This document shows positions 18,301 through 64,000 of a stretch of 64,000 bases of DNA, in pieces. Where the stretch lies: the NCBI GenBank assembly GCA_015233895.1, contig JADFXG010000002.1, forward strand, positions 186,001-250,000, in the 5' to 3' direction. The stretch's first letter is position 1. Each line of letters starts with the position of its first letter. The notes beneath the pieces are model-generated. The model ran no database searches. It was not told where the DNA came from and worked only from the letters and a program-made list of their open reading frames with translations. Position numbers and translations under genes: made by a program. This stretch comes from Nitrospirota bacterium (GTDB taxonomy: Bacteria > Nitrospirota > Thermodesulfovibrionia > Thermodesulfovibrionales > Magnetobacteriaceae).

Positions 18301-19194
18301 TTGCACCAAAAATTTGACATTACGTTAAAAGGTTTGTTGAAAGATATACCTGTCAAGTTCCTAAAAATTTTATCTGGTTTTGATAGTGGAAAATTTCTTG
18401 ATACTCAATTGACAAATGTAAATATCCTGATTCCTGACTTGTTAATAGAGCTTCCTGACTTAACTATTTTACACGTAGAAATTATGAGCAATCCTGAGAA
18501 AATGTTGAAGCGGATGTTTCTTTATAATGCACTTATTTTCAATCACTATGACAGGTTACCAAAACAGATACTTTTGTATGTTGGTGACAAACCTTTAAAT
18601 ATTGAAAACAAGATAGGAAATTATTCTTTTGAGATTGTTGATATAAAAGACATAAACTGTTCTGAGTTACTTGAAAGTGACAAACCTGAAGATATAGTTT
18701 TAGCGATATTGTGTAAATCCGAAAACATAGACGTTACTGTCGCTAAGATATTGGAGAAACTATCTGTGCTACCATTAAAGGACAGAGAAGATTATATTTT
18801 GAAATTACTCTATCTATCCGACTTAAGAAAATTATATACTAAAATAAAACAGGAGGTAGAGAAAATGCCTATAACAATTAACTTAGAAGACAGCGATATT
18901 TATAAGGAAGCTGTGGAGAAGGGATTGTCTAAGGGTAAACTGGAGGGCTTGTTTGAGGGTAAACGCGAGGGCTTGTTTGAAGGTAAACGCGAGGGCTTGT
19001 TTGAGGGTAAACGCGAGGGGTTAATAGAGGGCATTGAAGGTATGCTTGAACTCAAATTTGGCATCAATGGACTTGAATTAATGAATATTGTCAGAGCTAT
19101 AAATACATTAGATAAATTGGAGGAGTTGAAAAATCTTATCAGGAAAGCCGGTTCGGTGGATGAATTGAAAGAGTTTTTGGGGAAGAGTGTGTAA
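18301..19194 (+). CDS. Rpn/PD-(D/E)XK transposase-family protein, copy 1
   Basis: This 297-residue member of the Rpn (recombination-promoting nuclease, former transposase_31-like) group begins HQKFDITLKGLLKDIP. Its nuclease core has PDLLIEL, then HVEIMSNP, then QILLYVGDKPL. The usual E-x-Q of the PD-(D/E)XK core reads E-I-M here, so the active site may be altered. The tail has three 8-residue GLFEGKRE-type repeats, followed by the conserved C-terminus that ends DELKEFLGKSV. It starts with TTG directly behind the RNase J stop and ends 12 bases before the M28 peptidase gene. Copies 2 and 4 and a remnant lie elsewhere in the window. Confidence 0.8.
   Translation: MHQKFDITLKGLLKDIPVKFLKILSGFDSGKFLDTQLTNVNILIPDLLIELPDLTILHVEIMSNPEKMLKRMFLYNALIFNHYDRLPKQILLYVGDKPLNIENKIGNYSFEIVDIKDINCSELLESDKPEDIVLAILCKSENIDVTVAKILEKLSVLPLKDREDYILKLLYLSDLRKLYTKIKQEVEKMPITINLEDSDIYKEAVEKGLSKGKLEGLFEGKREGLFEGKREGLFEGKREGLIEGIEGMLELKFGINGLELMNIVRAINTLDKLEELKNLIRKAGSVDELKEFLGKSV
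18943..19014 (+). repeat. 24-bp tandem repeat, three copies, inside Rpn copy 1
   Basis: Three near-identical 24-bp units (GAGGGCTTGTTTGAGGGT + AAACGC) encode the octapeptide EGLFEGKR three times. Length changes here stay in frame, so the linker between nuclease core and C-terminal domain can vary. Confidence 0.85.
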
Positions 19195-19206
19195 AAATAC
19201 TAAAAA

Positions 19207-20082
19207 ATGCTGAATAAGGCTGATATAACAGAAAATCTAAAGAACACTGTTTATTTTTTATCTAAGGAAATAGGCCCAAGGCCATATAGTAACCTTAATG
19301 CCCTGAATAAAACCTCCGACTACATTTCAGCATCTCTTAAAAGTTATGGATACGATGTGTCTTATCAACCATACAAATACAAAGGAAATAATTATAAAAA
19401 TATATACACTGAAATTAAAGGAAACAAAACGCCGGAAATATCAATTGTAATTGGTGCTCATTATGATACAGTATCTACTACTCCGGGGGCTGATGATAAT
19501 TCAAGTGGAGTCGCCGGCTTGCTTGAGATAGCAAGATTATTAGAAAATTCCACCTTTGATAAGACAATTCGTTTCGTTGCATTTACACTTGAGGAACCGC
19601 CGGCTTTCATGACTAAAAATATGGGGAGTTATGTTTATGCCAAAAGTCTGAAGGAGAACAATGAAAATGTCGAATTAATGATATGTTTAGAAATGATTGG
19701 ATACTTCAGTAAAAAACAGAAATACCCTCTTCCTGTTCTTAAGTGGTTTTATCCCCATGAAGGCGATTTTATTTTACTTGCCGGTGATACTAACTCACAG
19801 CATTCCATATCAAAAGTAAAAAATGGCTTTAGAAAAGGAACCGTCATGCCTGTTGAATCCATTACTGCACCCAGGTTTATACCCGGAATTGATTTTTCGG
19901 ACCACAGATCCTTCTGGAAATTTGGCTACAATGCCATTATGGTTACAGATACGGCATTTTACCGGAATCCAAATTATCATAGATCAACAGACACGCCGGA
20001 AACATTGGATTATGACAGTATCACCGAAGTTGTATTGGGGCTTAAATCAGCAATATGTGAAATAGCAAACATTAAGATGTGA
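19207..20082 (+). CDS. M28 family zinc peptidase
   Basis: This 291-residue aminopeptidase-like protein carries the co-catalytic zinc ligands in GAHYDTV and GADDNSSG, the catalytic Glu in TLEEPP, and the later ligands in FSDHRSFW and NYHRSTDTPE. M28 enzymes remove N-terminal amino acids or act on modified peptides. There is no signal peptide, so it is probably cytoplasmic. It sits between two Rpn-family genes. A fragment of a second copy of its 3' end follows the second Rpn gene (21090-21167), which ties this gene to the Rpn locus by duplication. Confidence 0.85.
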   Translation: MLNKADITENLKNTVYFLSKEIGPRPYSNLNALNKTSDYISASLKSYGYDVSYQPYKYKGNNYKNIYTEIKGNKTPEISIVIGAHYDTVSTTPGADDNSSGVAGLLEIARLLENSTFDKTIRFVAFTLEEPPAFMTKNMGSYVYAKSLKENNENVELMICLEMIGYFSKKQKYPLPVLKWFYPHEGDFILLAGDTNSQHSISKVKNGFRKGTVMPVESITAPRFIPGIDFSDHRSFWKFGYNAIMVTDTAFYRNPNYHRSTDTPETLDYDSITEVVLGLKSAICEIANIKM

Positions 20083-20178
20083 ATAATTGATATTCATTAT
20101 TTGCTGTTAAAGCTGCTTTATATATTATGAAAATATTCATGTATGTTATTATAAGAAAATAGAATAAAGGGATTTTAA

Positions 20179-21075
20179 ATGCCACAATATTATGACATTA
20201 CACTGAAAAGTATCTTGAAAGAGTTGCCACGAAAATTTATGAAGATATTAACTGGATTTGAAACGGCAAAATTTCTGGACGTTCAATTTCCTGACATTAG
20301 GTACAGGCAACCAGATTTGCTGGTGGAACTCCCAGATGACACGTTGTATCATATGGAGATGCAAGCACAAAATGATGGCAACATGGATTGTAGAGAACTG
20401 GAGTATTATCATCTGATATTCTGCGAGTTTAGGAAATCTGTTACCCAAGTGGTTTTATATGTAGGCTCAGAAAAACTGAAGATGAGTAACGAAATTAAAG
20501 CAAAAGGTTTACATTTCACCTATCAGATAATAGATATCAGAGATATAAATTGCCGAGAACTTCTTGAAAGTGATGATCCGGGTGATAATATTTTGGCAAT
20601 CCTTTGTAAGACAGATGATGCCGATGGAACAATAAAGGGAATTCTTGCAAAATTATATGAATTACCGCCTGAGGAAAGAGAAAACTATATTCTAAAATTA
20701 CTAACCCTGTCAAGGCTAAGGGGTTTAACAAAATCCGTAGAAAGGGAGGTTAAAAAAATGCCGGTAACTATTGATGTGAGTACAGATGTACTTTATTTGG
20801 AGGGCATGGAGAAGGGCTTACTTGAGGGTAAACAAGAAGGGAAGTTAGAAGGGTTACTTGAAGGTGAACGGAAAGGCTTACTTGAAGGTGAACGAAAAGG
20901 CTTGCTTGAGGGAATTGAGTTAGGACTTGAACTTAAATTTGGTTCAGCCGGACTTGAGTTGATGAATACAGTCAAAGCTATGAATACTATAGATAAACTG
21001 GAAGAATTTAAGAATTATATCAAGAAAGCCGGTTCAGTGGATGAATTGAAAGAGTTTTTAGGAAAGAATATATAA
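20179..21075 (+). CDS. Rpn/PD-(D/E)XK transposase-family protein, copy 2
   Basis: This 298-residue paralogue of copy 1 has the same order: DITLKSILKELP start, nuclease core (PDLLVEL, HMEMQAQND, QVVLYVGSEKL), a helical middle, a Gly/Glu/Lys repeat tail and the ending DELKEFLGKNI. Unlike copy 1, it keeps E-x-Q, so the catalytic core looks intact. Known Rpn proteins raise recA-independent recombination and cut DNA. Here the role is inferred by family. It is preceded by an AT-rich gap of about 95 bases and a modest ribosome site (AAAGGGA). Confidence 0.82.
   Translation: MPQYYDITLKSILKELPRKFMKILTGFETAKFLDVQFPDIRYRQPDLLVELPDDTLYHMEMQAQNDGNMDCRELEYYHLIFCEFRKSVTQVVLYVGSEKLKMSNEIKAKGLHFTYQIIDIRDINCRELLESDDPGDNILAILCKTDDADGTIKGILAKLYELPPEERENYILKLLTLSRLRGLTKSVEREVKKMPVTIDVSTDVLYLEGMEKGLLEGKQEGKLEGLLEGERKGLLEGERKGLLEGIELGLELKFGSAGLELMNTVKAMNTIDKLEEFKNYIKKAGSVDELKEFLGKNI
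20862..20910 (+). repeat. 24-bp tandem repeat, two copies, inside Rpn copy 2
   Basis: Two near-identical units of GGCTTACTTGAAGGTGAACG + AAAA encode LLEGERKG repeats. They sit at the position of the copy-1 array, but with a different sequence, so the repeats have expanded independently. Confidence 0.7.
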
Positions 21076-21089
21076 AGCTTACAATAGTG

Positions 21090-21167
21090 CCGACAGATGC
21101 GATTTGTATTCTTTATGGAGTTGTACTGGGGCTTAAGTCCACAATATGTGAGATAGCAAGCGTTTAA
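21090..21167 (+). pseudogene. 3' remnant of a second M28 peptidase gene
   Basis: Read in frame from 21090, this stretch gives PTDAICILYGVVLGLKST + ICEIASV and a stop. The peptidase gene upstream ends with VTDTAFY ... EVVLGLKSAICEIANIKM. The last 18 codons are clearly homologous at the DNA level, and the TDxxxx segment before them also aligns, with about two dozen codons missing between. It is a collapsed second copy of the peptidase 3' end left behind Rpn copy 2. Confidence 0.7.
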
Positions 21168-21187
21168 ACCTCCAATGCCATGGTAGT

Positions 21188-24100
21188 TTATTTCAATTTT
21201 AAAAATTCCTCATGTGCAGTATTTACAGCATAATGAATCTGCTCCTCCGTGTGATTTGCCATAACGAAAAATCTTACTCTTGTTGCATCCTCGCTAACAG
21301 CAGGAAAAAGTATCGGCATTGCAAGAATTCCTCTGTCAAATATGGCATTGGCAAGCTTGAGTGTTTTTATTGAGTCACCGATAATGACGGGTATTATGGC
21401 TGTACCATTACTGGTTCCGGTGTTAAGTCCTTTTTCCTTTGCGAGTGTTAGAAAGAGGCTTGACAGATAATGCAGACGGGCTACCCGATAAGGCTCTTTT
21501 TTTATCGTTTCAAGTGAGGCTATTGCAGCAGCCGTATTTGCCGGTGTTATGCTGGTTCCAAAAATATATCCAGGTGTTGTCAATCTGAGATATTTAATCA
21601 GTTCCTTCGAACCGGCAATGTATCCCCCACAACTCCCAATAGCCTTACTTAACGTCCCCATCCACACATCCACATCTGAGCGGTTAACGTTATAATGCTC
21701 TCCAACTCCACCGCCATTTTTCCCCAAGACACCTATCGAATGAGCCTCATCTATCATAAGTAATGCCTTGTGGCGTTTCTTTATTTCAATAATTTTGGGA
21801 AGATTCGGAATATCCCCGTCCATGCTGTAAGTTCCTTCTATAAGAATAAGAACTTTCTTATACATGGCTCTCTCTTTCTTTAAAATAGCATCGAGAGCCT
21901 CCCAATCATTATGCGGGAAAGTTATTTTTCTTGCACCCGACAAAAGACTTCCCTGAACAGCGCTCATGTGCATATAAAGATCATGTACGATTAGATCACC
22001 GGAGCCGACCAGCGTTCCAACTATGGTTTCGTTTGTACCAAACCCGCTTGGCAACACCAGGCTGTCTTCACAGTTAAGGAATTCAGCCAATACCCTCTCC
22101 AGTTTCTTGTGAAGCGGGGTTAATCCTGTTATTGGATTAGTAGCTGAAACTGATGTGCCATATGTTTTGATAGCGTCTATAGAGGCATTACATACCGAAC
22201 TGTCACAAGACAGCCCCAGATAGTTGAAAGTTGCAAAGTTTATCAAGTCACTGCCGTTTATGTTCATAGTGCTTCCGGCCATACCGTTATTGACCTGAAA
22301 GTACGGATTTCTAATTCCTAACGATTCCCACAGGGCTAATCTGTTACTCCATTCTATATATTTCGGAAACTTATCGAACCGGTAATATTGTTCATCTATT
22401 TCATCCAACACAACCGTTTCTTTGGCAGATATTTCCAAAACATCATCCGAAACAGGTGTAATCCTATCAGAAGGCAATTTCAACGGAGTTTCACTTATAA
22501 CAGGCGCTTCACAAGCAATATAGGCTGCTAACTTCTCTATAGTCGGGTATTCATAGAATAGCCTTTCTTCAAGCGAATGCCCCAACGCTGATTGCAAATC
22601 AGCCATTATCTGCACAACCATAAGGGAATCAATGCCGTATGTGAATAAGTCCCGTTTGTTGTCCATTTCTTTTGAGGGGATCTTCAGATGTAACGATATT
22701 TTACTTACAAGCCATCTGTCTAATTTACAAATATCCTTATCACAGCCATCGAGTTTTTCACACTGATCTTCAACTGATTCATCCCTTACAGGTTCTGTAT
22801 CTTTTAACGCCCACAACTTTTCTATCTCCCCTGTTTCATAACCATGACGCAACCGATGACGTTGAATCTTACCGCTTGATGTCATTGGAATACTATAGGG
22901 ACGCAGCAACACAACGTCATAGACAGATAGTTCATGCTCCTCTGCTACAGCCTTACGTATCGCATTGGCAATAACCTCAGGTGGAAGAACATCGGCATCT
23001 CCATGTGATTGGGATGTTTTGTTTGATGTCTTTTGATGTACGCTGCAGGCATTTCCAGCTATAGATTCTCTGTCTTTTAAAATATCTCTCAAGCCAGTTA
23101 AATATCCACTATTTACCTCTATGGCGACAATAAGCTTCTCTTCTCCGTTTACTTCTGTAGAAAAAGCACCACAAGCACCCACTCTTATTGGTCTTGTCCC
23201 ATTTACATCAAAAGAAATCTCATCTACTGTCCACTCTATATCCTGAGGATAATAGTTCTGTCCACGGATTATTATCATATCCTTGATACGACCAGTAACA
23301 AACAGACTGCCATTAAATATAAACCCGGAATCACCTGTCCTTAAAAAAGGACCGTCTCCGGTATCGGATAAATATGCCTGAAAGGTTTGTTTAGTCGCCT
23401 CAGGATTATTCCAATACCCTTTTGCCACATTTTTGCCAGATATCAATATCTCACCAATCTCTCCGACAGGTTTTGTAGCGTTGGTCTCAGGGTCGGCTAT
23501 AACAATCTTTTCGTCAAGCCATGGCTTGCCATTTCCAACTAATATCTTTGTTCCTTTCCCGTTATTACCTTCATTACCTGTTAAAACCACACGATTACGT
23601 TCAAGTTCATTTGTAAGTAAAGATTTATACACCTGTAAGTCCCCACGCTCTCCGCCGGTTGCAAACAGCGTAACCTCGGCAAGTCCATAAGCCGGATATA
23701 GCGTTTCTCTTTTAAGTCCATACGGTGAGAATGCCTCGTAAAAACGATCCATTGTGCTGCTGTTAACCGGTTCAGAGCCGGATAGGGCAATCTTCAAGTG
23801 CGATAAATTAAGTCCTTGTTTTTGTTCATCCGTTATTTGACGTGCACATAGTTCATATGCGAAGTTTGGTGCAAGAGTTACAGTAGCTTTATAATCGGAT
23901 ACAGCTTTAATCCAACATATTGGTTTCTGTAGAAAAGAGATTGGGGCCATAAAATAAAGACGCATCCCCATATAAATAGGGGAAAGTACCTGACCTATCA
24001 ATCCCATATCATGAAACAGAGGACTCCACCCAACGGCAATGGAATCTTCTGATAAGTTAATTGCAGATTGGAGCATTAGTTCATTATAAATAATGTTTTC

Positions 24101-24661
24101 GTGGGTTATCATTACTCCTTTAGGTTTAGCTGTCGATCCGGAAGTGTATTGGAGAAAAACTATATCGTCTGCATTAACCAAATTTTCCCAATAGTCTTTT
24201 GCGTTATCCTCGCTAATGGTTTCTGTTGAGACCCATGGTAAATCTTTTAGTGACAGATCCTCTTTATACATTGGTTTTATTTTATTTACGATATTGGATT
24301 TGCTAAGAATAACGGATGGTTTGGAATCATCTATTATGGATTTAAACCTGTCAAGTTTTTGATTCCTTTTTGGGGGATAAGCAGGGACAGCAATAATGCC
24401 GGCATAAACACAGCCAAAAAACGCACAGATAAAATCCAGGCCGGATGGGTATGCTAAAATCGCTCTTGATCCTCTATGGTATGACCTTTGAAGTTCAACG
24501 GCAATTGAACGGGCTTTCTTATCAAGCTCAGCATAAGTCAAAGATATGCCGTTTCCCTCACCATCAGGTAAGAAAGTATAAGCAACCCTATCCGGATGCT
24601 TATTTACTCTAAACCGGAGTAAATCAACCAATGTTGAGATATTACTAAACTTGTCAGTCAT
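21188..24661 (-). CDS. FAAL-ACP-alpha-oxoamine synthase fusion
   Basis: This 1157-residue three-part enzyme begins with a fatty acyl-AMP ligase-type domain (1-610: YTSGSTAKPKGV, SPLFHDMGLIG, LAPNFAYELC, RTGDSGF, GRIKDMIIIRGQNYYPQDIE). An acyl carrier domain follows (about 645-720) with the phosphopantetheine Ser in YGIDSLMVV, near 675. The last part is a PLP alpha-oxoamine synthase domain (about 780-1157: FNYLGLSCDS, GTYSMDGDIPNL, MIDEAHSIGVLG, Lys near 1006 in GTLSKAIGS). By family logic it activates a fatty acid, loads it on the ACP domain, and condenses it with an amino acid with loss of CO2 to give an alpha-amino ketone, as in sphingoid-base or CqsA/BioF chemistry. It is last in the operon. 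The product is unknown. Confidence 0.88.
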   Translation of the reverse strand: MTDKFSNISTLVDLLRFRVNKHPDRVAYTFLPDGEGNGISLTYAELDKKARSIAVELQRSYHRGSRAILAYPSGLDFICAFFGCVYAGIIAVPAYPPKRNQKLDRFKSIIDDSKPSVILSKSNIVNKIKPMYKEDLSLKDLPWVSTETISEDNAKDYWENLVNADDIVFLQYTSGSTAKPKGVMITHENIIYNELMLQSAINLSEDSIAVGWSPLFHDMGLIGQVLSPIYMGMRLYFMAPISFLQKPICWIKAVSDYKATVTLAPNFAYELCARQITDEQKQGLNLSHLKIALSGSEPVNSSTMDRFYEAFSPYGLKRETLYPAYGLAEVTLFATGGERGDLQVYKSLLTNELERNRVVLTGNEGNNGKGTKILVGNGKPWLDEKIVIADPETNATKPVGEIGEILISGKNVAKGYWNNPEATKQTFQAYLSDTGDGPFLRTGDSGFIFNGSLFVTGRIKDMIIIRGQNYYPQDIEWTVDEISFDVNGTRPIRVGACGAFSTEVNGEEKLIVAIEVNSGYLTGLRDILKDRESIAGNACSVHQKTSNKTSQSHGDADVLPPEVIANAIRKAVAEEHELSVYDVVLLRPYSIPMTSSGKIQRHRLRHGYETGEIEKLWALKDTEPVRDESVEDQCEKLDGCDKDICKLDRWLVSKISLHLKIPSKEMDNKRDLFTYGIDSLMVVQIMADLQSALGHSLEERLFYEYPTIEKLAAYIACEAPVISETPLKLPSDRITPVSDDVLEISAKETVVLDEIDEQYYRFDKFPKYIEWSNRLALWESLGIRNPYFQVNNGMAGSTMNINGSDLINFATFNYLGLSCDSSVCNASIDAIKTYGTSVSATNPITGLTPLHKKLERVLAEFLNCEDSLVLPSGFGTNETIVGTLVGSGDLIVHDLYMHMSAVQGSLLSGARKITFPHNDWEALDAILKKERAMYKKVLILIEGTYSMDGDIPNLPKIIEIKKRHKALLMIDEAHSIGVLGKNGGGVGEHYNVNRSDVDVWMGTLSKAIGSCGGYIAGSKELIKYLRLTTPGYIFGTSITPANTAAAIASLETIKKEPYRVARLHYLSSLFLTLAKEKGLNTGTSNGTAIIPVIIGDSIKTLKLANAIFDRGILAMPILFPAVSEDATRVRFFVMANHTEEQIHYAVNTAHEEFLKLK

Positions 24662-24710
24662 TATTTTTTTTCCTTTTATTTATTCTCACTAATATATTTC
24701 CATTTAACTA

Positions 24711-25529
24711 CTACGCATTTAACCCAATCTTCTTCTTATAAAACATCTCTACAACCTCTCTGTCGAATGGATTTACAATCATACCTGCATCGGCAATGAC
24801 TGATTGCCCATTGATAGCGCTTGAGCTGCCGCTTAATAAAAACGCTATCACGTTGGCTATTTCTTTTGTTTCAATTGCTGCTTTTCTAAATGTTAAAGCA
24901 TCTGTATAAAGAGATAGTTTTATAAAGTCTGGAATTCCTGCGGCTGAAGATGTTCGTATGACGTTTGATGAAACAACATTAAATCTAACCTGTGAAAATT
25001 GACTGAACGACTGTGCAAGATATACCACTGACGATTCTAAAGCAGCTTTTACAGGAGCCATATAACTGTAGTTTTCAATAGCTATTTTAGTAAATGGAAC
25101 AGAAAGTGTAACCACTGAGGCGTTGTTATCAAGTACGTCTTTGAAAGCACAAGACAGACTGATTAAAGAGTAACAGGATATGTCAATCGCCTGAAGGAAA
25201 TCCACCTTTCTTGTCTCATGAAATGGTTTAAGTCCTTCCGAAAAGTTGGCAAATGCTATAGAGTGTAACATTCCGTCTATTTTACTATGTTTGCTTGAGA
25301 CATCTTTATAGAGAATTGCTATCTCATCCTGGTTTTCTACATTACAAGTAAAGATATCAGTATCTGGTATAAACTGTTGTACTTTTTCTTTTACGGTAGC
25401 GTCTTTTACTACATAAATACACTCTGCTCCTTCATCCACAAGGCACTTTGCTGCAAAATATGCAATGCTTTTTTTATTAAACACTCCCACAATCAGAAAC
25501 TTCTTGCCCTCTAACTGCAAAAAACTCAT
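24711..25529 (-). CDS. FabI-like enoyl-ACP reductase (divergent SDR)
   Basis: The 272-residue short-chain dehydrogenase resembles FabI. GVFNKKSIAYF matches the FabI nucleotide loop (G-x5-SIA). ENYSYMAPVKAALE gives the Tyr-x6-Lys pair, and NVIRTSSAAGIPDF parallels the FabI PIRTLAASGI loop. The second FabI tyrosine, ten residues before the catalytic one, is Val here (TLSVPF instead of LSYLG), so it may be a specialised paralogue rather than the housekeeping enzyme. It is encoded between ACP (4-base overlap) and the FAAL-ACP-AOS gene, and so probably reduces an intermediate on that pathway. Confidence 0.8.
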   Translation of the reverse strand: MSFLQLEGKKFLIVGVFNKKSIAYFAAKCLVDEGAECIYVVKDATVKEKVQQFIPDTDIFTCNVENQDEIAILYKDVSSKHSKIDGMLHSIAFANFSEGLKPFHETRKVDFLQAIDISCYSLISLSCAFKDVLDNNASVVTLSVPFTKIAIENYSYMAPVKAALESSVVYLAQSFSQFSQVRFNVVSSNVIRTSSAAGIPDFIKLSLYTDALTFRKAAIETKEIANVIAFLLSGSSSAINGQSVIADAGMIVNPFDREVVEMFYKKKIGLNA

Positions 25530-25774
25530 TTTAGTTTTGCCTCAAGATAATCTACTGTGCTTTTCATGCTTTTTAAATGTGGAAAATCCTCATCTGGTAT
25601 TTCTATTGCGTATTTTCTCTGAAGTGCCATCACAACATCAAGAAAATCCATGCTGTCCATCTCCATCATGTTACTAAATGGCAGCTCTGTGTCCTCAATT
25701 GTGGAACAATCTACCTCAGTCATAACGTCCTGCATTATCCCTATCACAACATCCATAATTTCTTTTCTTGTCAT
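25526..25774 (-). CDS. Acyl carrier protein
   Basis: This 82-residue acidic helical protein has the phosphopantetheine attachment Ser in EMDSMDFLD. It diverges from housekeeping AcpP (usually DSLD), so it is likely pathway-specific. Its stop overlaps the start of the FabI-like gene by four bases, and the ketoacyl synthase gene lies 27 bases upstream in the same direction. It probably carries the growing or modified acyl chain used by the ketosynthase, reductase and FAAL-ACP-AOS proteins. No phosphopantetheinyl transferase is encoded nearby. Confidence 0.88.
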   Translation of the reverse strand: MTRKEIMDVVIGIMQDVMTEVDCSTIEDTELPFSNMMEMDSMDFLDVVMALQRKYAIEIPDEDFPHLKSMKSTVDYLEAKLK

Positions 25775-25801
25775 TTCGCATTTCTCCCGTTTGTGTATGT
25801 T

Positions 25802-27034
25802 TTATTCATATTTTTTTATTATAACTGTAGAATTAATACCTAACATTCCAAAGGAATTATTTAGAATATATCGTATCCCGTCTAATTTTATAGGCTCATT
25901 TCTTACTATATTTGTAATCATACATTCAGCATCGAGATTATCTAAATTTAATGTGTGATGAATAAAACCATCGGTAAAAGAGGGCAGTTCACCAGCAAGC
26001 TCAAGTGCCCCAGCAGCTCCCATCGTGTGTCCAATATAGCTTTTAGTGTTCGTAATATAAACACTGTTATGTTTACCGAATATGTTATAGATAGCCCTGC
26101 CCTCTGTTTTGTCGCCCAGAGGTGTTGACGTTGAGTGAGCATTTATAATGCTAATATCCTGCGGTTCAAGTACTGCCCTGCGGAGAGCCTTAACCATACA
26201 TTGCTCCTGCCGCTCCTGATTAGGTGCTACATAGTCTGAGGCGTCCGTATTTATCCCATAGCCGACTAACTCACCATAGATTTTTGCCTTTCTTGCTAAA
26301 GCATCATCTAACCTTTCCAGTATGTATAAACAACCGCCTTCCGATATTACTATACCGTTTCTATCAGTATCGAAAGGTCTGCAAGCCTTTTGAGGGTCGT
26401 TGTTATTAGCAAGGGCACCTTCATTTCTAAAGCTTGCAAAACATAGAAATGTTCTTATACTTTCAGACACCCCACCGCATATAGCCAAATCAACCTCGTC
26501 TAACATAAGCATTTGTGCACCGTGAATAAGACCAATGTTACCTGCTGCACAGGCTGCTCCTAAAGTGTAATGCGGTCCGGTTATTCCAAGATTAAGAGCA
26601 ATCTCTCCTGCAGGATTATTTGATATAGTCTTTGGATTAAAAAGATGGGATACGTATTTCAGATTGTATCCGTAATCCTTTATAGCCATTATTTCCTCTG
26701 TTGCTTCTGCTGCACCATGCTCGGTAATTCCAACATATATTCCTATATTGGATTTATCCAAAACGGCTAAATTAATACCTGCATCTTTTAACGCCTCATG
26801 AGCACAGTATATGCCGATTGATGCTGCTCTGGTACCTCTTCTTCTCTCTTTTTTTGACTGATATTTGCTTTCGTCATAAACGCAAACGCCAGCTATAACC
26901 TCACCCATAAGTTTCTCTTTATAAAGAGTAACACCTGATTTGCCCTCAAGGAGATTTTTCCTGAACTCGGCAAGATTGTTACCGTTAGGCGATGTTAAAC
27001 CCACTCCTGTAATTACAATTCTTTTGTTTTTCAT
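25802..27034 (-). CDS. Beta-ketoacyl-ACP synthase (FabF/KAS II-like)
   Basis: This 410-residue thiolase-fold condensing enzyme has the Cys-His-His set: Cys in LGAACAAGN, His in INAHSTSTPLGD and His in YIGHTMGAAGALE. It extends or builds an acyl-ACP by decarboxylative Claisen condensation. The presence of both His residues argues for a condensing enzyme, not a chain-length factor. It stands between the nitronate-monooxygenase-like gene (16 bases) and the ACP gene in the operon. No ketoreductase or dehydratase is encoded here, so those steps, if needed, must come from the general FAS. Confidence 0.88.
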   Translation of the reverse strand: MKNKRIVITGVGLTSPNGNNLAEFRKNLLEGKSGVTLYKEKLMGEVIAGVCVYDESKYQSKKERRRGTRAASIGIYCAHEALKDAGINLAVLDKSNIGIYVGITEHGAAEATEEIMAIKDYGYNLKYVSHLFNPKTISNNPAGEIALNLGITGPHYTLGAACAAGNIGLIHGAQMLMLDEVDLAICGGVSESIRTFLCFASFRNEGALANNNDPQKACRPFDTDRNGIVISEGGCLYILERLDDALARKAKIYGELVGYGINTDASDYVAPNQERQEQCMVKALRRAVLEPQDISIINAHSTSTPLGDKTEGRAIYNIFGKHNSVYITNTKSYIGHTMGAAGALELAGELPSFTDGFIHHTLNLDNLDAECMITNIVRNEPIKLDGIRYILNNSFGMLGINSTVIIKKYE

Positions 27035-27050
27035 TCTCTTTCAGTCACAT

Positions 27051-28118
27051 TTATAAATGTAATAAAGTCTCCTCTATGAGGTTCCTTACCAATGATTTGA
27101 CAGATATTATTTCGTTGCACCGATGAGCATTCGCGCCAGCAAAAGCAAACCCTTCATCGAGGTTACCTTCGGCAGCATTAAATAAAGCCTTGGCAATGCA
27201 GTAAGGAGCAGTTTTAGGGTCACAGGTTTTTAAGCAAAGATATGTACATTTAAAAGGAATAGTTTCCCCTTTGAATATCCTCTCCACAAATTCGTTTCGA
27301 ATAACCCTACCAGGCAGCCCTACTGGACTTTTTATTATCACTAAATCTTCTTCTTTCGCATCTAACCATGCCTGTTTGAAATTCTCATGGACATCGCATT
27401 CATATGTACAGACGAACCGGCTTGCCATTTGAACACCGGAAACACCTAATTTTAGATATTTCGCAATCTCACCGCCATCAAATATCCCTCCTGCCGCTAT
27501 TACAGGAATTGGCGGAGTGTATGAGTTCGCAATCTCAAGGATATCAGTTACAATCTGCTCAAGACTTTGTGCCTTATTCTCTACAATATCTTTATAAGTA
27601 AACCCAAGATGACCCCCTGCCTTAGGGCCTTCAACTATAACAGCATCGGGTATCTTGTTATAATTGTGGCTCCAAAATTCACATATAAGCTTAAATGTCC
27701 TGACTGACGATACGATTGGTAACAGCTTGACATCTTTTCCATCAAGGTATTTGGGGAGATCCACAGGCATACCTGCACCGGAGATAATTATATCTACACC
27801 CTCTTCAACTGCGGCTTTAACGAACCGTTGATAATCAGATACGGCATACAAAATATTAATGCCTATTATCCCGTTAGTTAAACTCCGCGCCTTCTTGATT
27901 TCGTCTTTTAATGCCTTTACTCTAACCTCACCATCTGCATTGTTTTTACCAGATATGGTATATCCTAATCCCGTAGCGGCAATTACACCAATGCAACCCT
28001 CATTTGCAGCAGATGAAGCCAATCCAGCAAGAGATATTCCCACACCCATCCCGCCTTGAATTATCGGAACTTCAGCCGTTAAATTCCCTATTTTTAGTTG
28101 TGGCAGGCTTTTACTCAT
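27051..28118 (-). CDS. Nitronate monooxygenase/FabK/PfaD-like flavoprotein
   Basis: This 355-residue FMN TIM-barrel protein shows IIQGGMGVGIS at the N-terminus, GAGMPVDLP, VEGPKAGGHLGF with the conserved His, and the phosphate-binding AAGGIFDGGEIAKYLKLG. Members oxidise nitronates (Nmo) or act as enoyl reductases (FabK, PfaD). Given its place at the head of an acyl-ACP operon, an FMN-dependent enoyl reductase is an attractive reading, but not proven. The C-terminal Cys-rich segment CTYLCLKTCDPKTAPYC is notable. The start ATG at 28118 has a weak ribosome site. Confidence 0.82.
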   Translation of the reverse strand: MSKSLPQLKIGNLTAEVPIIQGGMGVGISLAGLASSAANEGCIGVIAATGLGYTISGKNNADGEVRVKALKDEIKKARSLTNGIIGINILYAVSDYQRFVKAAVEEGVDIIISGAGMPVDLPKYLDGKDVKLLPIVSSVRTFKLICEFWSHNYNKIPDAVIVEGPKAGGHLGFTYKDIVENKAQSLEQIVTDILEIANSYTPPIPVIAAGGIFDGGEIAKYLKLGVSGVQMASRFVCTYECDVHENFKQAWLDAKEEDLVIIKSPVGLPGRVIRNEFVERIFKGETIPFKCTYLCLKTCDPKTAPYCIAKALFNAAEGNLDEGFAFAGANAHRCNEIISVKSLVRNLIEETLLHL

Positions 28119-28466
28119 AACACCATAGTGACACCAAACGTGGCTTAAAAAGATTCTGGAGTTGATTGAAGCAAATACAGGTTATGTATATAACGAAAGC
28201 ATAATTGAAAGATACATATTTAAATTTGAATAGAAATTTTCTTAATATTAAAGGAGCACTAGAGAGAGAGAGAGAAGCAAAAAATACGCCATTTTGCACT
28301 CTTTAATTTACAAACCAACATCTTCCCTCCCAAAAACATTTTTTAAACTACTACAGGATAATAAACAAATAAAAATGCAATGTCAAGTAAAATTTTCTAA
28401 TATTTTTAATATGTTACAAAAGTAGCCAAAAATGCTAATATAATTGAAATAGAGACAGTAGGGCTG
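28119..28466. other. Gene-free stretch with a coding remnant and a GA repeat
   Basis: This is upstream DNA of the five-gene operon (minus) and must hold its promoter, but I see no convincing boxes. On the plus strand, 28128-28231 reads TWLKKILELIEANTGYVY + NESIIERYIFKFE + stop. That looks like the 3' end of a lost gene I cannot name. A (GA)n run of eight units lies near 28261-28277. The remainder is AT-rich with no feature. Confidence 0.4.
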
Positions 28467-28750
28467 ATACCGCAGTATTATGATATTACTCTGAAGAGTA
28501 TTTTGAAAGCGTTGCTATGAAAATTCTTGAAGATATTGACTAGATTTGAGACTACAAAGTTTCCTGACATGCTATTTTCTTACAAAATTATATGAATTGC
28601 CACTTGAGGAAAGAACAGACTATGTTTTAAAATTACTAACCTTGCCAAGGCTAAGAGTTTTGAAAGAATCCGTAAAAATGGAGGTTCATAATCTTATCAG
28701 GAAAGCCGGTTCAGTAAATGAATTAAAGGGGTTTTGGGTAATAATGTATA
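28467..28750 (+). pseudogene. Collapsed Rpn-family gene remnant
   Basis: The first 100 bases (QYYDITLKSILKALL in the original frame) closely match Rpn copy 2, but a CGA codon has become TGA. The sequence then jumps to the middle (TKLYELPLEERTDYVLKLLTLPRLRVLKESVK) and jumps again to the C-terminus (NLIRKAGSVNELKGF), where it matches copy 1 better than copy 2. Two internal deletions and at least one stop make it a pseudogene. A short sequence AAAATGCTAA...GAAATAGAG occurs on both sides (28433-28455 and 28764-28797). The latter resembles the 5' end of the M28 gene. Confidence 0.8.
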
Positions 28751-28914
28751 ATATTGTTGAGCTAAAAATGCTAAGTTTGGCCATAACTGAAATAGAGTAA
28801 GTTTTAACGCACTTATTCATGTTCAATAGACAGTGTAAACCCTTGAGATGAAATATGAAATATATTTTGCGTTATCAAGTACATTATACGAAATAATTTA
28901 ATGGAGGGAATGTA

Positions 28915-29703
28915 GTGGAGATATTTCAGGCAATTGTTTTAGGTATAGTGCAGGGAGTAACGGAGTTTTTTCCGATAAGCAGCACGGCTCATCTGATTTT
29001 AATACCGTGGTTTTTTGGATGGACCGGGGCTGTGGATTCACTTGAGTTTGATATTGCTCTGCATGTTGGCACTTTGCTTGCGCTTGTTACGTTTTTTTTC
29101 AAAGACTGGTTGGAAATGTTTTTTAAAAAACACAAGAGAAGGCTTCTTTATCTAATTATAGTGGCAACTGTACCGGGAGCAATAGCCGGTAAGCTGCTTG
29201 ATAAGTATGCAGAGACCTCGTTAAGAAGTCCGCTGATAATAGCGGTTAGCCTGATTGTGGTTGCGATAGCTATGTTTATTTCTGAACGGGTTGGAATCAA
29301 AGTACAGACAGCTGAAAAGTTAAGTTACTTAGATGCAGTGTTAGTTGGCATAGCACAGGCTTTTGCCATAATTCCAGGAGTGTCACGCTCCGGTGGCACT
29401 ATTACTATGGGTATGTTTTTAGGAATGAAAAGAGATGAAGCTGCAAGGTTTTCTTTTTTAATGTGTACTCCGATTGTAGCAGGGGCTGCAGCTTTGCATG
29501 GGTATCATATACTGAAAGCACATAGTGCAGGCTTTAACATGCCGATGTTTGTCTTTGGTGTGCTTGCCTCTTTTATATCAGGGGTGTTAACAATTAAATT
29601 TCTACTGTCTTTTTTTAAGAGATTTTCATTAAACGGTTTTGTTTATTACAGGATTGTTCTTGCTCTGGTAATAATAGCTACGATGGTATGGCAGAAGTCG
29701 TAA
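28915..29703 (+). CDS. uppP: Undecaprenyl-diphosphatase
   Basis: This 262-residue integral membrane enzyme (BacA/UppP family) recycles undecaprenyl pyrophosphate to the monophosphate carrier used in peptidoglycan and polysaccharide assembly. The two catalytic motifs are visible: GVTEFFPISSTAHLIL near the N-terminus and PGVSRSGGTI in the second half. About eight hydrophobic segments are present. The start is GTG at 28915 with a GGAGGG ribosome site. It overlaps ftsK by 16 bases. Confidence 0.93.
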   Translation: MEIFQAIVLGIVQGVTEFFPISSTAHLILIPWFFGWTGAVDSLEFDIALHVGTLLALVTFFFKDWLEMFFKKHKRRLLYLIIVATVPGAIAGKLLDKYAETSLRSPLIIAVSLIVVAIAMFISERVGIKVQTAEKLSYLDAVLVGIAQAFAIIPGVSRSGGTITMGMFLGMKRDEAARFSFLMCTPIVAGAAALHGYHILKAHSAGFNMPMFVFGVLASFISGVLTIKFLLSFFKRFSLNGFVYYRIVLALVIIATMVWQKS

Positions 29704-31874: not shown

Positions 31875-33569
31875 TTACTCCTTGCAATTATTCCGCTTAA
31901 GCTCTACGCGGCGGTTCTTTGCACGGTTTACGTCTGTTGTGTTTGGCACAAGCGGTTTTGTATCGCCGTAGCCCTTAGCAGTAAGCCTCGCAGGAGATAC
32001 TCCGTGGTTGACAAGCCAGGTCTTAACCGAATTTGCCCGCTCATCGGATAACTTTAGATTGTAGGCGGGTTTGCCTATGTTGTCGGTATGGCCTCCTATT
32101 TCCGCAACGTACTGCGGGTCGTTGTTAAAAAGTGCTAACACCTGGGTCAATACCGGTTCGGAGCCGGGGGCAATTGTAGCCTTGTCGAAGTCAAAATTGA
32201 CGCCATAGATCTCCAATGTGCATTCCTTAGGGGTTGGCCCCCCTGCCTGCACCGTTATAAGCTCATAGGAACCCGTTGCTTTATCGTTTCCGGATGTGTG
32301 TTTTACGATATACCACAGCTCACCCAAATTGGTCTTATTTGTTGCTACCGTGTAATAAATATTTTTTGGATCGGAGACCACAGAAGCACTAATTGTCTGA
32401 AGTGCGTTTTGATAATTCTTCTTAATTACCAACGGGGTGGGGGTTCTTGATTTATCGGTTAGCGTGTAGTTTGTTACAAGAACGTGGCCTGCTATGATTT
32501 TGCTACCGCCTGGAAGATCGACCTTTACGGAATCGAAATCACGATAACTACAGTTGTCTATCTTAAAATATGAAAACTGTTTAATCAGCCACGGCGGGTT
32601 TTGGCAATCACGGTTTTTTGCATTGAGCGGAGCCGTCATAGCCTGTGCCTGTACCTCTTGCTCGAACGAGCGTACATTTACGGTAGTAAGCATGTATGAT
32701 GTAGTTGAATCGTCATTGCCACTACCATGCTTATAAATGTACCAAAACTCGCCATACGGAGTTTTTTGAGTAAACACCGCATGATTAACATTGTTTGGAT
32801 CGGAAACGAGTTGAGCGCCAATAGTTTGTAGGGCATTATTATAATTATTCATGACCGCAGCAGCAGTCGGAGAGTTCTTTTCGTTGGTTATAGTATACGT
32901 GACAGTGACACGAGCGCCTTCTACTGACTTTTCACCACCGGGCAAGTCGAGCCTGACAACGTCCCAGCCTTTGTTTTCACATGAAGCAAGCTTAAAATCA
33001 GAAAACTGTTTAACCAGCCACGGCGGGTTTTGGCATGTGCTGCTTTTAGGGTCAAGAGGCGCTTTCATAGGTTGAGCCTGAACCTCTTGCTCAAGCGGAC
33101 GCACTTGCACGGTCGTCAGGATAAATCCATCGGTTGAGTTCTCGTTACCGCCACCGTGGGTGTAAACAAACCAGAACTCCCCTTCGGGGCCTTTTTTTGT
33201 CATTACGGCCTTGTAAATGTTTCCTGGGTCGGAGACGAGTTGAGCGCCAGCGTTTTGAGCTTGTTTGACATAGTAGGACAAAGCATCTGCTGCTTTGGGG
33301 GTTTTTGCCTTATCTGTTAGTGTGTATGTAATTGTGCTGCGATGGCCAGATACCGATTTTTCTCCCTGTGGAAGATCAAATTTTAGAGTAGCCCATGCCT
33401 TATCGTTACATGACGTAATGGTAAACCCTGTAAGGGGTGAGGATGCCCAGGACGGCGCCTTGCATCCTGCAGCATTGTCGGCTTTGGCAACACTGGATAA
33501 CCCAACAGTAATGAACATAATGATGGTTGCCGATAAAAGCCAATATTTAAAAAAGCTATTCTTTTTCAT
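31875..33569 (-). CDS. OmpA-family protein with three copies of an unknown domain
   Basis: This secreted protein of 564 residues has a signal peptide (cleavage near A30). Three repeats of about 135 residues start at about 36, 174 and 313. Each opens with C-x2-[PS]-x-W, has a second Cys about 14-17 residues on, then DLPxGxK and YTxT[DN]...P, and ends with GE[FL]W[YF][IV]xxHxxGN. A C-terminal OmpA peptidoglycan-binding domain follows (about 447-564: FDFDKATI, GHTDNIG, NLKLSDERANSVKTWL, KNRRVEL). The OmpA domain anchors it to peptidoglycan. I do not recognise the repeated domain; the Cys pair could form a disulfide. It stands as a single gene with its own promoter. Confidence 0.85.
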   Translation of the reverse strand: MKKNSFFKYWLLSATIIMFITVGLSSVAKADNAAGCKAPSWASSPLTGFTITSCNDKAWATLKFDLPQGEKSVSGHRSTITYTLTDKAKTPKAADALSYYVKQAQNAGAQLVSDPGNIYKAVMTKKGPEGEFWFVYTHGGGNENSTDGFILTTVQVRPLEQEVQAQPMKAPLDPKSSTCQNPPWLVKQFSDFKLASCENKGWDVVRLDLPGGEKSVEGARVTVTYTITNEKNSPTAAAVMNNYNNALQTIGAQLVSDPNNVNHAVFTQKTPYGEFWYIYKHGSGNDDSTTSYMLTTVNVRSFEQEVQAQAMTAPLNAKNRDCQNPPWLIKQFSYFKIDNCSYRDFDSVKVDLPGGSKIIAGHVLVTNYTLTDKSRTPTPLVIKKNYQNALQTISASVVSDPKNIYYTVATNKTNLGELWYIVKHTSGNDKATGSYELITVQAGGPTPKECTLEIYGVNFDFDKATIAPGSEPVLTQVLALFNNDPQYVAEIGGHTDNIGKPAYNLKLSDERANSVKTWLVNHGVSPARLTAKGYGDTKPLVPNTTDVNRAKNRRVELKRNNCKE

Positions 33570-37111: not shown

Positions 37112-37396
37112 ATGAGAGTTTCTAAAATTAAGTTTCTGACACTGTCGTTACTGATGATTTTAGTCTTATCATTAGCTGTTTATGGTAGTGGTATGGCAAT
37201 GATGGGTGGTGGCGGCGGTTCTCAAGGCAATGGTGGTGGCATGGGCAATGGCGGTGGCATGGGCAATGGCGGAGGTATGGGCAATGGTGGTGGCATGGGC
37301 AATGGCGGAGGTATGGGCAATGGCGGAGGTATGGGACATCAACCCCCACCTGATAATAGAACAGGTTCAGATATGGGAAATGGCCACTTATATTAG
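37112..37396 (+). CDS. Exported Gly/Met/Asn-rich repeat protein
   Basis: The 94-residue protein has a signal peptide (MRVSKIKFLTLSLLMILVLS ... AVYG), then a low-complexity tail of six GNGGGM hexapeptides flanked by other Gly and Met residues, ending HQPPPDNRTGSDMGNGHLY. Nothing catalytic is visible. Regular Met every six residues could coordinate soft metal ions such as copper(I), or the repeat may simply be a flexible surface polymer. The gene has an AGGGGGT ribosome site and the shared operator. A hairpin lies downstream. Confidence 0.8.
   Translation: MRVSKIKFLTLSLLMILVLSLAVYGSGMAMMGGGGGSQGNGGGMGNGGGMGNGGGMGNGGGMGNGGGMGNGGGMGHQPPPDNRTGSDMGNGHLY
37226..37333 (+). repeat. 18-bp coding tandem repeat, six copies
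   Basis: Six in-frame units of GGCAATGGYGGNGGYATG encode GNGGGM. Third positions differ between units, so the peptide repeat looks selected while the DNA has drifted. Copy number could vary between strains. Confidence 0.9.
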
Positions 37397-63118: not shown

Positions 63119-64000
63119 TTATACACTCCTGGCCAGAAACTCCTTCAGTTCATCTATTGAATCAGCTTTTTTGATAAGGTTTTTAAAATCCTCTAATTTA
63201 TCGATAGTATTTATAGCCCTAACTATATTCATCAGTTCAAGTCCGGCAAAACTATATTTGAGTTCAAGTCCTAACTCAATACCCTCAAGTAATCCCTCCT
63301 GCTTACCCTTAAACAATCCCTTCTCAATCCCTCTCTCAATCCCTCTCTCAATCCCTCTCTCAATCCCTCTTTCCATTCCTCTTTCCATTCCTCTTTCCAT
63401 CCCTTTTCCATTCCTTGTTTGTACCTGACATCACGTTCTATATCATATACCAAAGCCATTTCACTTACCTCCTTGCATACGTTTTCCTGTAAATCTCTGA
63501 GTTGCGCCAGTATCTCTAACTGTCTTATGTACTTTAAACGACTAACCTCCTCTTTTACGGTTTCCATTATTTTGCTTAACAGGGTCTTTATTACTATTGT
63601 ATCATCTTCTGAGCCGAAATTACATAAAATCCCAAGTATCACCTCAGCAGGTGTATTGGAACTTATGAATTTTTCACAGTCTATGCTCCTGAAGTCTATT
63701 ATGTCATATTCAAAGGCCAAATTTTCGTCTTTGATATAATTTTTCATTCTGAGTGGTTTTCTGCCGACATAAAACAGCACCTGTTTTACCGGTTTTCCAT
63801 ACGTCTGACTAATATAAATACGGTACCGGAGCATTCTATATGGCATGTTGCTGTCATTTGTGGCCTGGAATTCTATATGCAAAATGTATGTGCTGCCATC
63901 GTGTAAGGTAACCTCAAGTAAGAAATCGGCTTCTCTTTCGTCAGTGATTTGTAGTTTAGTTTTCAGTGGCTTTATTGATATTGCATTTATTCCCAACACC
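63119..64000 (-). pseudogene. Rpn/PD-(D/E)XK family gene, copy 4, frameshifted, cut by window edge
   Basis: The nuclease core (ADFLLEV, HIEFQATND, QVLFYVGRKPL; E-x-Q intact) and helical middle are in one frame from the window edge to the repeat tail (KQGMEKG). The rest of the tail (MERG and IERG repeats) and the C-terminus (ELGLELKYSFAGLELMNIVR, ending DELKEFLARSV) are in another frame, from about 63400. One repeat unit (63399-63410) has 11 instead of 12 bases, which explains the shift. The start lies beyond the window. It may be a decayed gene, a sequencing error, or a slippage-prone locus. Confidence 0.75.
63306..63410. repeat. 12-bp tandem repeat array with one 11-bp unit
   Basis: About eight units of AATCCCTCTCTC or ATTCCTCTTTCC (plus strand) encode IERG and MERG tetrapeptides on the minus strand. 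The last unit before the nuclease core is one base short. Both frames stay open across the array. Confidence 0.85.

Follow-up and report, generated by a model that had tools for sequence, protein, structure and literature searches.

The reactions of a fatty acyl-AMP ligase (FAAL), an acyl carrier protein (ACP) and an alpha-oxoamine synthase (AOS) are known from separate genes of bacterial sphingolipid synthesis. In Caulobacter and E. coli B, the acyl-ACP synthetase AasR loads AcpR, and SPT prefers acyl-AcpR (PMC9386255). The E. coli genes are those of our locus L121, in which AasR is a FAAL-type gene. A second set of related systems comprises RkpA-RkpG of Sinorhizobium meliloti and fusion proteins of Planktothrix and Streptomyces, in which an AOS is fused to or adjoins an ACP and an iterative type I PKS assembles the chain. 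The S. meliloti AOS gene is one that we take to be RkpG from its gene order and from what is generally known of the rkp region. Cysteate fatty acyltransferase, which acts in the synthesis of sulfonolipids, likewise applies AOS chemistry to an acyl thioester.

Here, we describe a locus in a 64,000-nt stretch of DNA from a Nitrospirota bacterium (contig JADFXG010000002.1, positions 186,001 to 250,000; hereafter the window) that encodes a FAAL, an ACP and an AOS in one polypeptide. Because the trio is already known experimentally from separate genes (PMC9386255), it is the one-chain architecture and its genomic context that are new, and not the chemistry. We consider it probable that this protein starts from a free fatty acid, which it activates and transfers to its own ACP, and that it then condenses the acyl chain with an amino acid to a long-chain alpha-amino ketone. 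If this is true, a single polypeptide leads from free fatty acid through the committed steps of sphingoid-type lipid synthesis and would be a compact object for enzymology and engineering.

Architecture of the fusion protein

Five intact ORFs on the minus strand fill positions 21188-28118 of the window, separated by gaps of 16, 27 and 49 nt and joined once by a 4-nt overlap. The largest encodes the fusion protein with three domains:

21188..24661, minus strand: FAAL-ACP-AOS fusion protein, 1157 aa (intact ORF, Pfam domains, catalytic residues)
22823..24661, minus strand: FAAL domain, residues 1-613, with FAAL-type insertion (best PDB matches are FAALs)
22514..22726, minus strand: fused ACP domain, residues about 646-716, attachment site Ser679 (PF00550, 55 bits)
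21212..22309, minus strand: AOS domain, residues 785-1150, PLP lysine Lys1006 (Pfam, structure matches, residues, tree)

The Pfam matches were AMP-binding at residues 18-417 (233 bits), PP-binding at 650-715 (55 bits) and Aminotran_1_2 at 805-1147 (150 bits), and a sequence-only reading of the locus had correctly recognized both the 1157-aa protein and the tight minus-strand run. Because the top solved relatives of the first domain are FAALs (7r7g, 486 bits; 3kxw, 416 bits) and the alignment reveals the FAAL-specific insertion that E. coli FadD lacks, its sequence identifies this domain as a FAAL and not a CoA ligase. FAALs are distinguished by rejecting CoA and loading holo-ACP, and the FAAL pocket is described in PMC8460268. 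Ser679 of the fused ACP is present in the alignment, and the AOS domain retains every residue by which we judged membership of this family, that is, the stacking His898, the Asp971/His974 pair, the PLP lysine Lys1006 and the carboxylate-binding Arg1130.

With these residues in place, the FAAL would adenylate a free fatty acid with ATP to acyl-AMP and hand the acyl group to the fused ACP, on a Ser679 phosphopantetheine that a PPTase from another locus would attach. The AOS, carrying PLP on Lys1006, would then convert the acyl thioester and an amino acid into an alpha-amino ketone and CO2, and the product may serve as a sphingoid-base-like lipid precursor. This order of loading and condensation, proposed in the sequence-only reading, accords with the domains, the residues and the AasR/AcpR/SPT precedent, and an amino ketone still appears to be the likely product.

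The proposed steps parallel those of AasR/AcpR/SPT, in which a fatty acid is converted to acyl-AMP, a specialised ACP is loaded and a PLP-dependent AOS performs the condensation. The known trio differs in being encoded by three separate genes, in an AOS that belongs to another clade (AU p = 5e-36) and in having reductase and N-acyltransferase genes nearby, none of which were found near the window fusion.

Phylogenetic placement of the AOS domain

In a tree of 31 sequences, the fusion AOS grouped with RkpG-type and PKS-linked AOSs with support of 100/99; eukaryotic SPT2 formed the sister of this clade (99/96), and the fusion AOS was placed outside all bacterial SPTs. This monophyly and the ACP fused upstream mark the domain as a carrier-linked AOS of the RkpG type. 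AU tests rejected grouping it with BioF (p = 0.0009), KBL (p = 0.00009) or proteobacterial SPT (p = 5e-36), and cysteate fatty acyltransferase belonged to a distinct clade. CqsA and LqsA were compared to the fusion AOS by score, outside the 31-sequence tree.

Among the AOS models, bioF scored best with 331 bits, yet stayed under its cut-off of 426. That the protein is a second biotin-type AONS (BioF) is extremely improbable in view of the AU result, the lack of a biotin gene in the run and a further AOS gene at C9 of the same genome that already fits the BioF role by match profile. The sequence-only reading, which would have been contradicted by a BioF grouping together with a complete biotin operon, holds on this point.

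It is possible, though on the whole doubtful, that the protein is a fused equivalent of AasR-AcpR-SPT that uses serine and releases ordinary 3-ketosphinganine. Its three activities would be identical to those of the proven trio (PMC9386255), SPT2 is the sister of its AOS clade, and the Sphingobacterium SPT is its best solved relative (217 bits). The SPT models, however, all remained below their cut-offs (310/640, 259/500 and 210/670 bits), and five amino-acid-pocket positions differ in the alignment from the rest of the clade, which also counts against the amino ketone reading proposed above. Relative to the Sphingobacterium SPT, Y812F is near the Asn52 position, S841T is at and R842N beside the Ser81 position, and S1035G and G1037S are near the Met271 loop. 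Moreover, the genome has a separate SPT-clade AOS at C1 (L136), flanked by genes for an epimerase-type SDR and a GNAT, so that serine chemistry would be duplicated. Because this SDR-AOS-GNAT locus seems to provide for ordinary sphingoid synthesis, it is plausible that the fusion handles a different amino acid or chain.

The carrier-protein-linked relatives of the fusion AOS are 41-48% identical to it. They include AOSs fused after an ACP (Planktothrix KS-AT-DH-ER-KR-ACP-AOS, Streptomyces KS-AT-ACP-AOS) and pairs of PKS and AOS genes in Sinorhizobium, Pseudomonas, Paraburkholderia, Caballeronia and Nitrospira; the RkpA-RkpG-type and PKS-ACP-AOS systems also share a homologous N-terminal extension with the window AOS. 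The closest relatives of the FAAL-ACP half are FAALs of cyanobacterial and Nitrospira PKS/NRPS proteins (38-46%). No iterative type I PKS accompanies the AOS in the island described below, where FAAL-ACP takes the place of the whole PKS. Because of the origins of these relatives, the fusion resembles the loading unit of a PKS attached directly to a release unit of the same kind of enzyme. If this is true, FAAL-ACP loading has been linked to AOS release with every elongation domain removed.

The same relatives raise the possibility that the fusion makes the lipid that anchors or carries a surface polysaccharide, a role proposed for the RkpG-type genes of rhizobial K-antigen clusters. In Sinorhizobium, Paraburkholderia, Caballeronia and Pseudomonas, the closest AOS relatives adjoin capsule genes. 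We regard this explanation as unlikely, as the island contains no capsule or export gene and the Nitrospira relatives accompany MMPL-like transporter genes instead. Four Nitrospira-type clusters (L122, L123, L126 and L127) combine a type I PKS and an AOS with envelope-type genes whose sequences, read by eye, suggest a porin, an MMPL transporter and a protein for lipoprotein sorting. Judging from their gene content, these clusters might make and export an amino ketone lipid that has yet to be described.

The adjoining FabX-like module

The remaining four genes of the run lie upstream of the fusion, behind a promoter-like site:

24711..25529, minus strand: FabI-like enoyl-ACP reductase (ENR), 272 aa, Tyr154/Met157/Lys161 (PF13561, 177 bits; FabI structures best)
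25526..25774, minus strand: divergent discrete ACP, 82 aa, Ser41 (PF00550, 28.6 bits; orthologues 49-65% identical in related clusters)
25802..27034, minus strand: FabF-like ketosynthase (KAS), 410 aa, Cys162/His300/His336 (FabF subfamily below cut-off; FabF structures best)
27051..28118, minus strand: predicted FabX-like FMN/[4Fe-4S] acyl-ACP dehydrogenase/isomerase, 355 aa (270 bits to 7e1q/9lt5; cluster cysteines)
28358..28386, minus strand: promoter-like site TTGACA-17-TATTAT, 11/12, upstream of the five-gene run (consensus match only)

No terminator-like site was found on the minus strand between the five genes. The catalytic residues confirmed the ketosynthase with its Cys-His-His triad and the FabI-like reductase of the sequence-only reading. 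The FMN protein had been read as FabK/PfaD/Nmo-like and has to be reassigned. Among solved structures it scored 270 bits to the 7e1q/9lt5 group versus 108 bits to FabK, and with 149.5 bits it did not reach the TIGR03151 (FabK) cut-off of 453; we therefore dropped the assignment as FabK.

FabX converts acyl-ACP to trans-2- and then to cis-3-enoyl-ACP for the synthesis of unsaturated fatty acids. In the Helicobacter pylori enzyme, for which 7E1Q is cited, His182 and Cys300/304/308/320 are either essential or ligands of the [4Fe-4S] cluster (PMC8626469). The alignment matches His170 and Cys291/295/299/307 of the window protein to this catalytic His and the four cluster cysteines, which are also kept in the orthologues of G003, G004, G007, G010, G012, G019 and G021. 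By its FMN NMO-fold, the His and the conserved order of the cysteines, the protein is FabX-like, with a predicted role as dehydrogenase/isomerase. Unlike that of H. pylori FabX, its gene shares an operon with dedicated KAS, ACP and ENR genes. With a FabX-like FMN protein among them, the upstream genes resemble a module for unsaturated chains, and not for the simple reduction that had been assumed. The FabX-KAS-ACP-ENR module probably makes a cis-unsaturated acyl-ACP. If this reading is right, the locus points to a FabX-based operon for unsaturated lipids in uncultured Nitrospirota.

No FabZ gene lies between the ACP and ENR genes, which are the pair with the 4-nt overlap, or, by tblastn, elsewhere in the region, and the five-gene run contains no thioesterase, dedicated ketoreductase or PPTase. 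The dehydratase and ketoreductase for the module must come from housekeeping enzymes encoded elsewhere in the genome, which contains several FabG-type SDRs. It also has three PPTase-domain genes, one of them in a frame of 230 aa, a length that matches Sfp-type enzymes, so that the missing PPTase and ketoreductase can be supplied from outside the run.

The relatives G003, G004, G010 and G012 contain the module as FabX, KAS, ACP, FabZ and ENR, with identities to the window of 66-74% (FabX), 72-79% (KAS), 49-65% (ACP) and 56-87% (ENR). Beside these genes no FAAL-AOS was found where the contig continues; that of G003 stops inside ENR. Because the relatives carry FabX-KAS-ACP-FabZ-ENR without an adjoining FAAL-AOS, gene content indicates that the fusion was added to a lipid module that is older than itself and that lost FabZ here. 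The single line of making, reducing and releasing a chain that the sequence-only reading envisaged is weakened by this distribution. In addition, the module and the fusion do not obviously form one line because a discrete acyl-ACP from the FabX module would not need a FAAL. That the fusion nevertheless condenses the cis-unsaturated chain of the module with a non-serine amino acid, and so makes an undescribed, island-spread lipid class, is a tentative and rather unlikely idea.

A laterally variable island

The five genes are part of a segment with the following features:

19211..28675: island of about 9.5 kb with an M28 peptidase gene, an Rpn gene and the five genes (empty sites in congeners; low GC and GC3)
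18301..19194, plus strand: presumably an Rpn-type (PD-(D/E)XK) gene at the left island edge (type from family knowledge)
28546..28800, plus strand: Rpn remnant at the right island edge, which matches the end of the left copy at 84% over 63 nt

Positions 19211-28675 are absent at the syntenic site in G001 (a complete genome), G002 and G003, in which uppP-ftsK comes next after RNase J, whether or not an Rpn gene is present, and the flanks match at 78-95%. The island has a GC content of 0.383 versus 0.42-0.43 in the flanks and a GC3 of 0.30-0.35 versus 0.42-0.47. The simplest reading is a gain by recombination between Rpn copies; loss of the segment from three congeners would be the less parsimonious alternative. 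On this laterally variable island, the fusion would have been joined to the older FabX-KAS-ACP-ENR module.

Its location on an island and its strain-specific presence fit accessory metabolism, and FAALs commonly feed PKS or NRPS products; the fusion might hence make a short-chain signal or a secondary metabolite such as a CAI-1-like alpha-amino ketone. This option, offered in the sequence-only reading, appears improbable to us. The AOS is distant from CqsA (75 bits versus 217 to the Sphingobacterium SPT), the quorum-sensing AOS model gave 151 bits against a cut-off of 428, and the island lacks a sensor, an exporter and a resistance gene. If the long-chain amino ketone reading is true, the membrane lipids of this Nitrospirota group could become predictable and testable.

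Rpn-type genes or remnants occur at four places in the window (18301-19194, 20179-21075, 28546-28800 and 63271-63999), three of them at or in the island, and there was no Rfam match in 19000-29000. Directly upstream of the window (G000:C2:163539-183361) are three large type I PKS genes with frames of 2004, 1530 and 2182 aa, and C15 of the same genome has further NRPS/PKS genes. The window also encodes an OmpA-like protein with three internal repeats (31875-33569) and a Gly/Met-rich protein with MGNGGG repeats (37112-37396).

Occurrence of the fusion in other genomes

No second FAAL-ACP-AOS fusion was found outside this lineage in 396 Nitrospirota genomes and 60 relatives, in 72,556 plasmid records or in a scan of GTDB genomes, which used short patterns from one sequence that distant fusions may escape. 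The fusion is supported by one species-level lineage. No described cluster with the same set of genes was found in the data searched, in line with the sequence-only reading, and literature searches that combined FAAL with AOS gave no match.

The only other copy of the fusion is on a contig in MAG nDJH6bin1 (99.7% over 4148 nt). This MAG is 95.3% identical to the window around the empty island site and has its own FabX-KAS-ACP-FabZ-ENR contig, which is 76-86% identical and ends inside ENR. In view of both observations, the fusion-bearing contig is probably a stray from the window species or its strain, and we do not count it as independent support for the fusion. In this near-identical contig (L023; JADFYB010000230.1), all 13 in-gene differences from the window fall within one stretch of about 60 nt, creating a TAG stop, which suggests an assembly error in this 3.7x contig.

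G010 retains a C-terminal scrap of an AOS that is 72% identical over 53 residues to the fusion AOS, from which it appears that a related AOS was once more widespread in the family. This scrap, the missing FabZ of the window copy and a relative in which FabX is fused to ENR through deletion would suit a decaying or inactive acquisition. We rate such decay as very unlikely for the window, in which all five ORFs are intact and the 5 of 75 clade-invariant AOS positions that are altered lie within the range of other members. In the relative with the deletion (L171 2301-3677; G015:C51), a FabX-like N-terminal part continues in frame into the C-terminal half of ENR, as would result from a deletion of KAS, ACP and FabZ.

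A different FAAL-ACP fusion is encoded on a Legionella lytica plasmid (L119 11899-16770; NZ_CP071528.1). There, a FAAL-ACP-ComA (phosphosulfolactate synthase) fusion of 970 aa adjoins a phosphosulfolactate phosphatase and an AOS whose best match is cysteate fatty acyltransferase (28eh, 358 bits). By their similarities, these genes likely represent a sulfonolipid-type set outside Bacteroidota.
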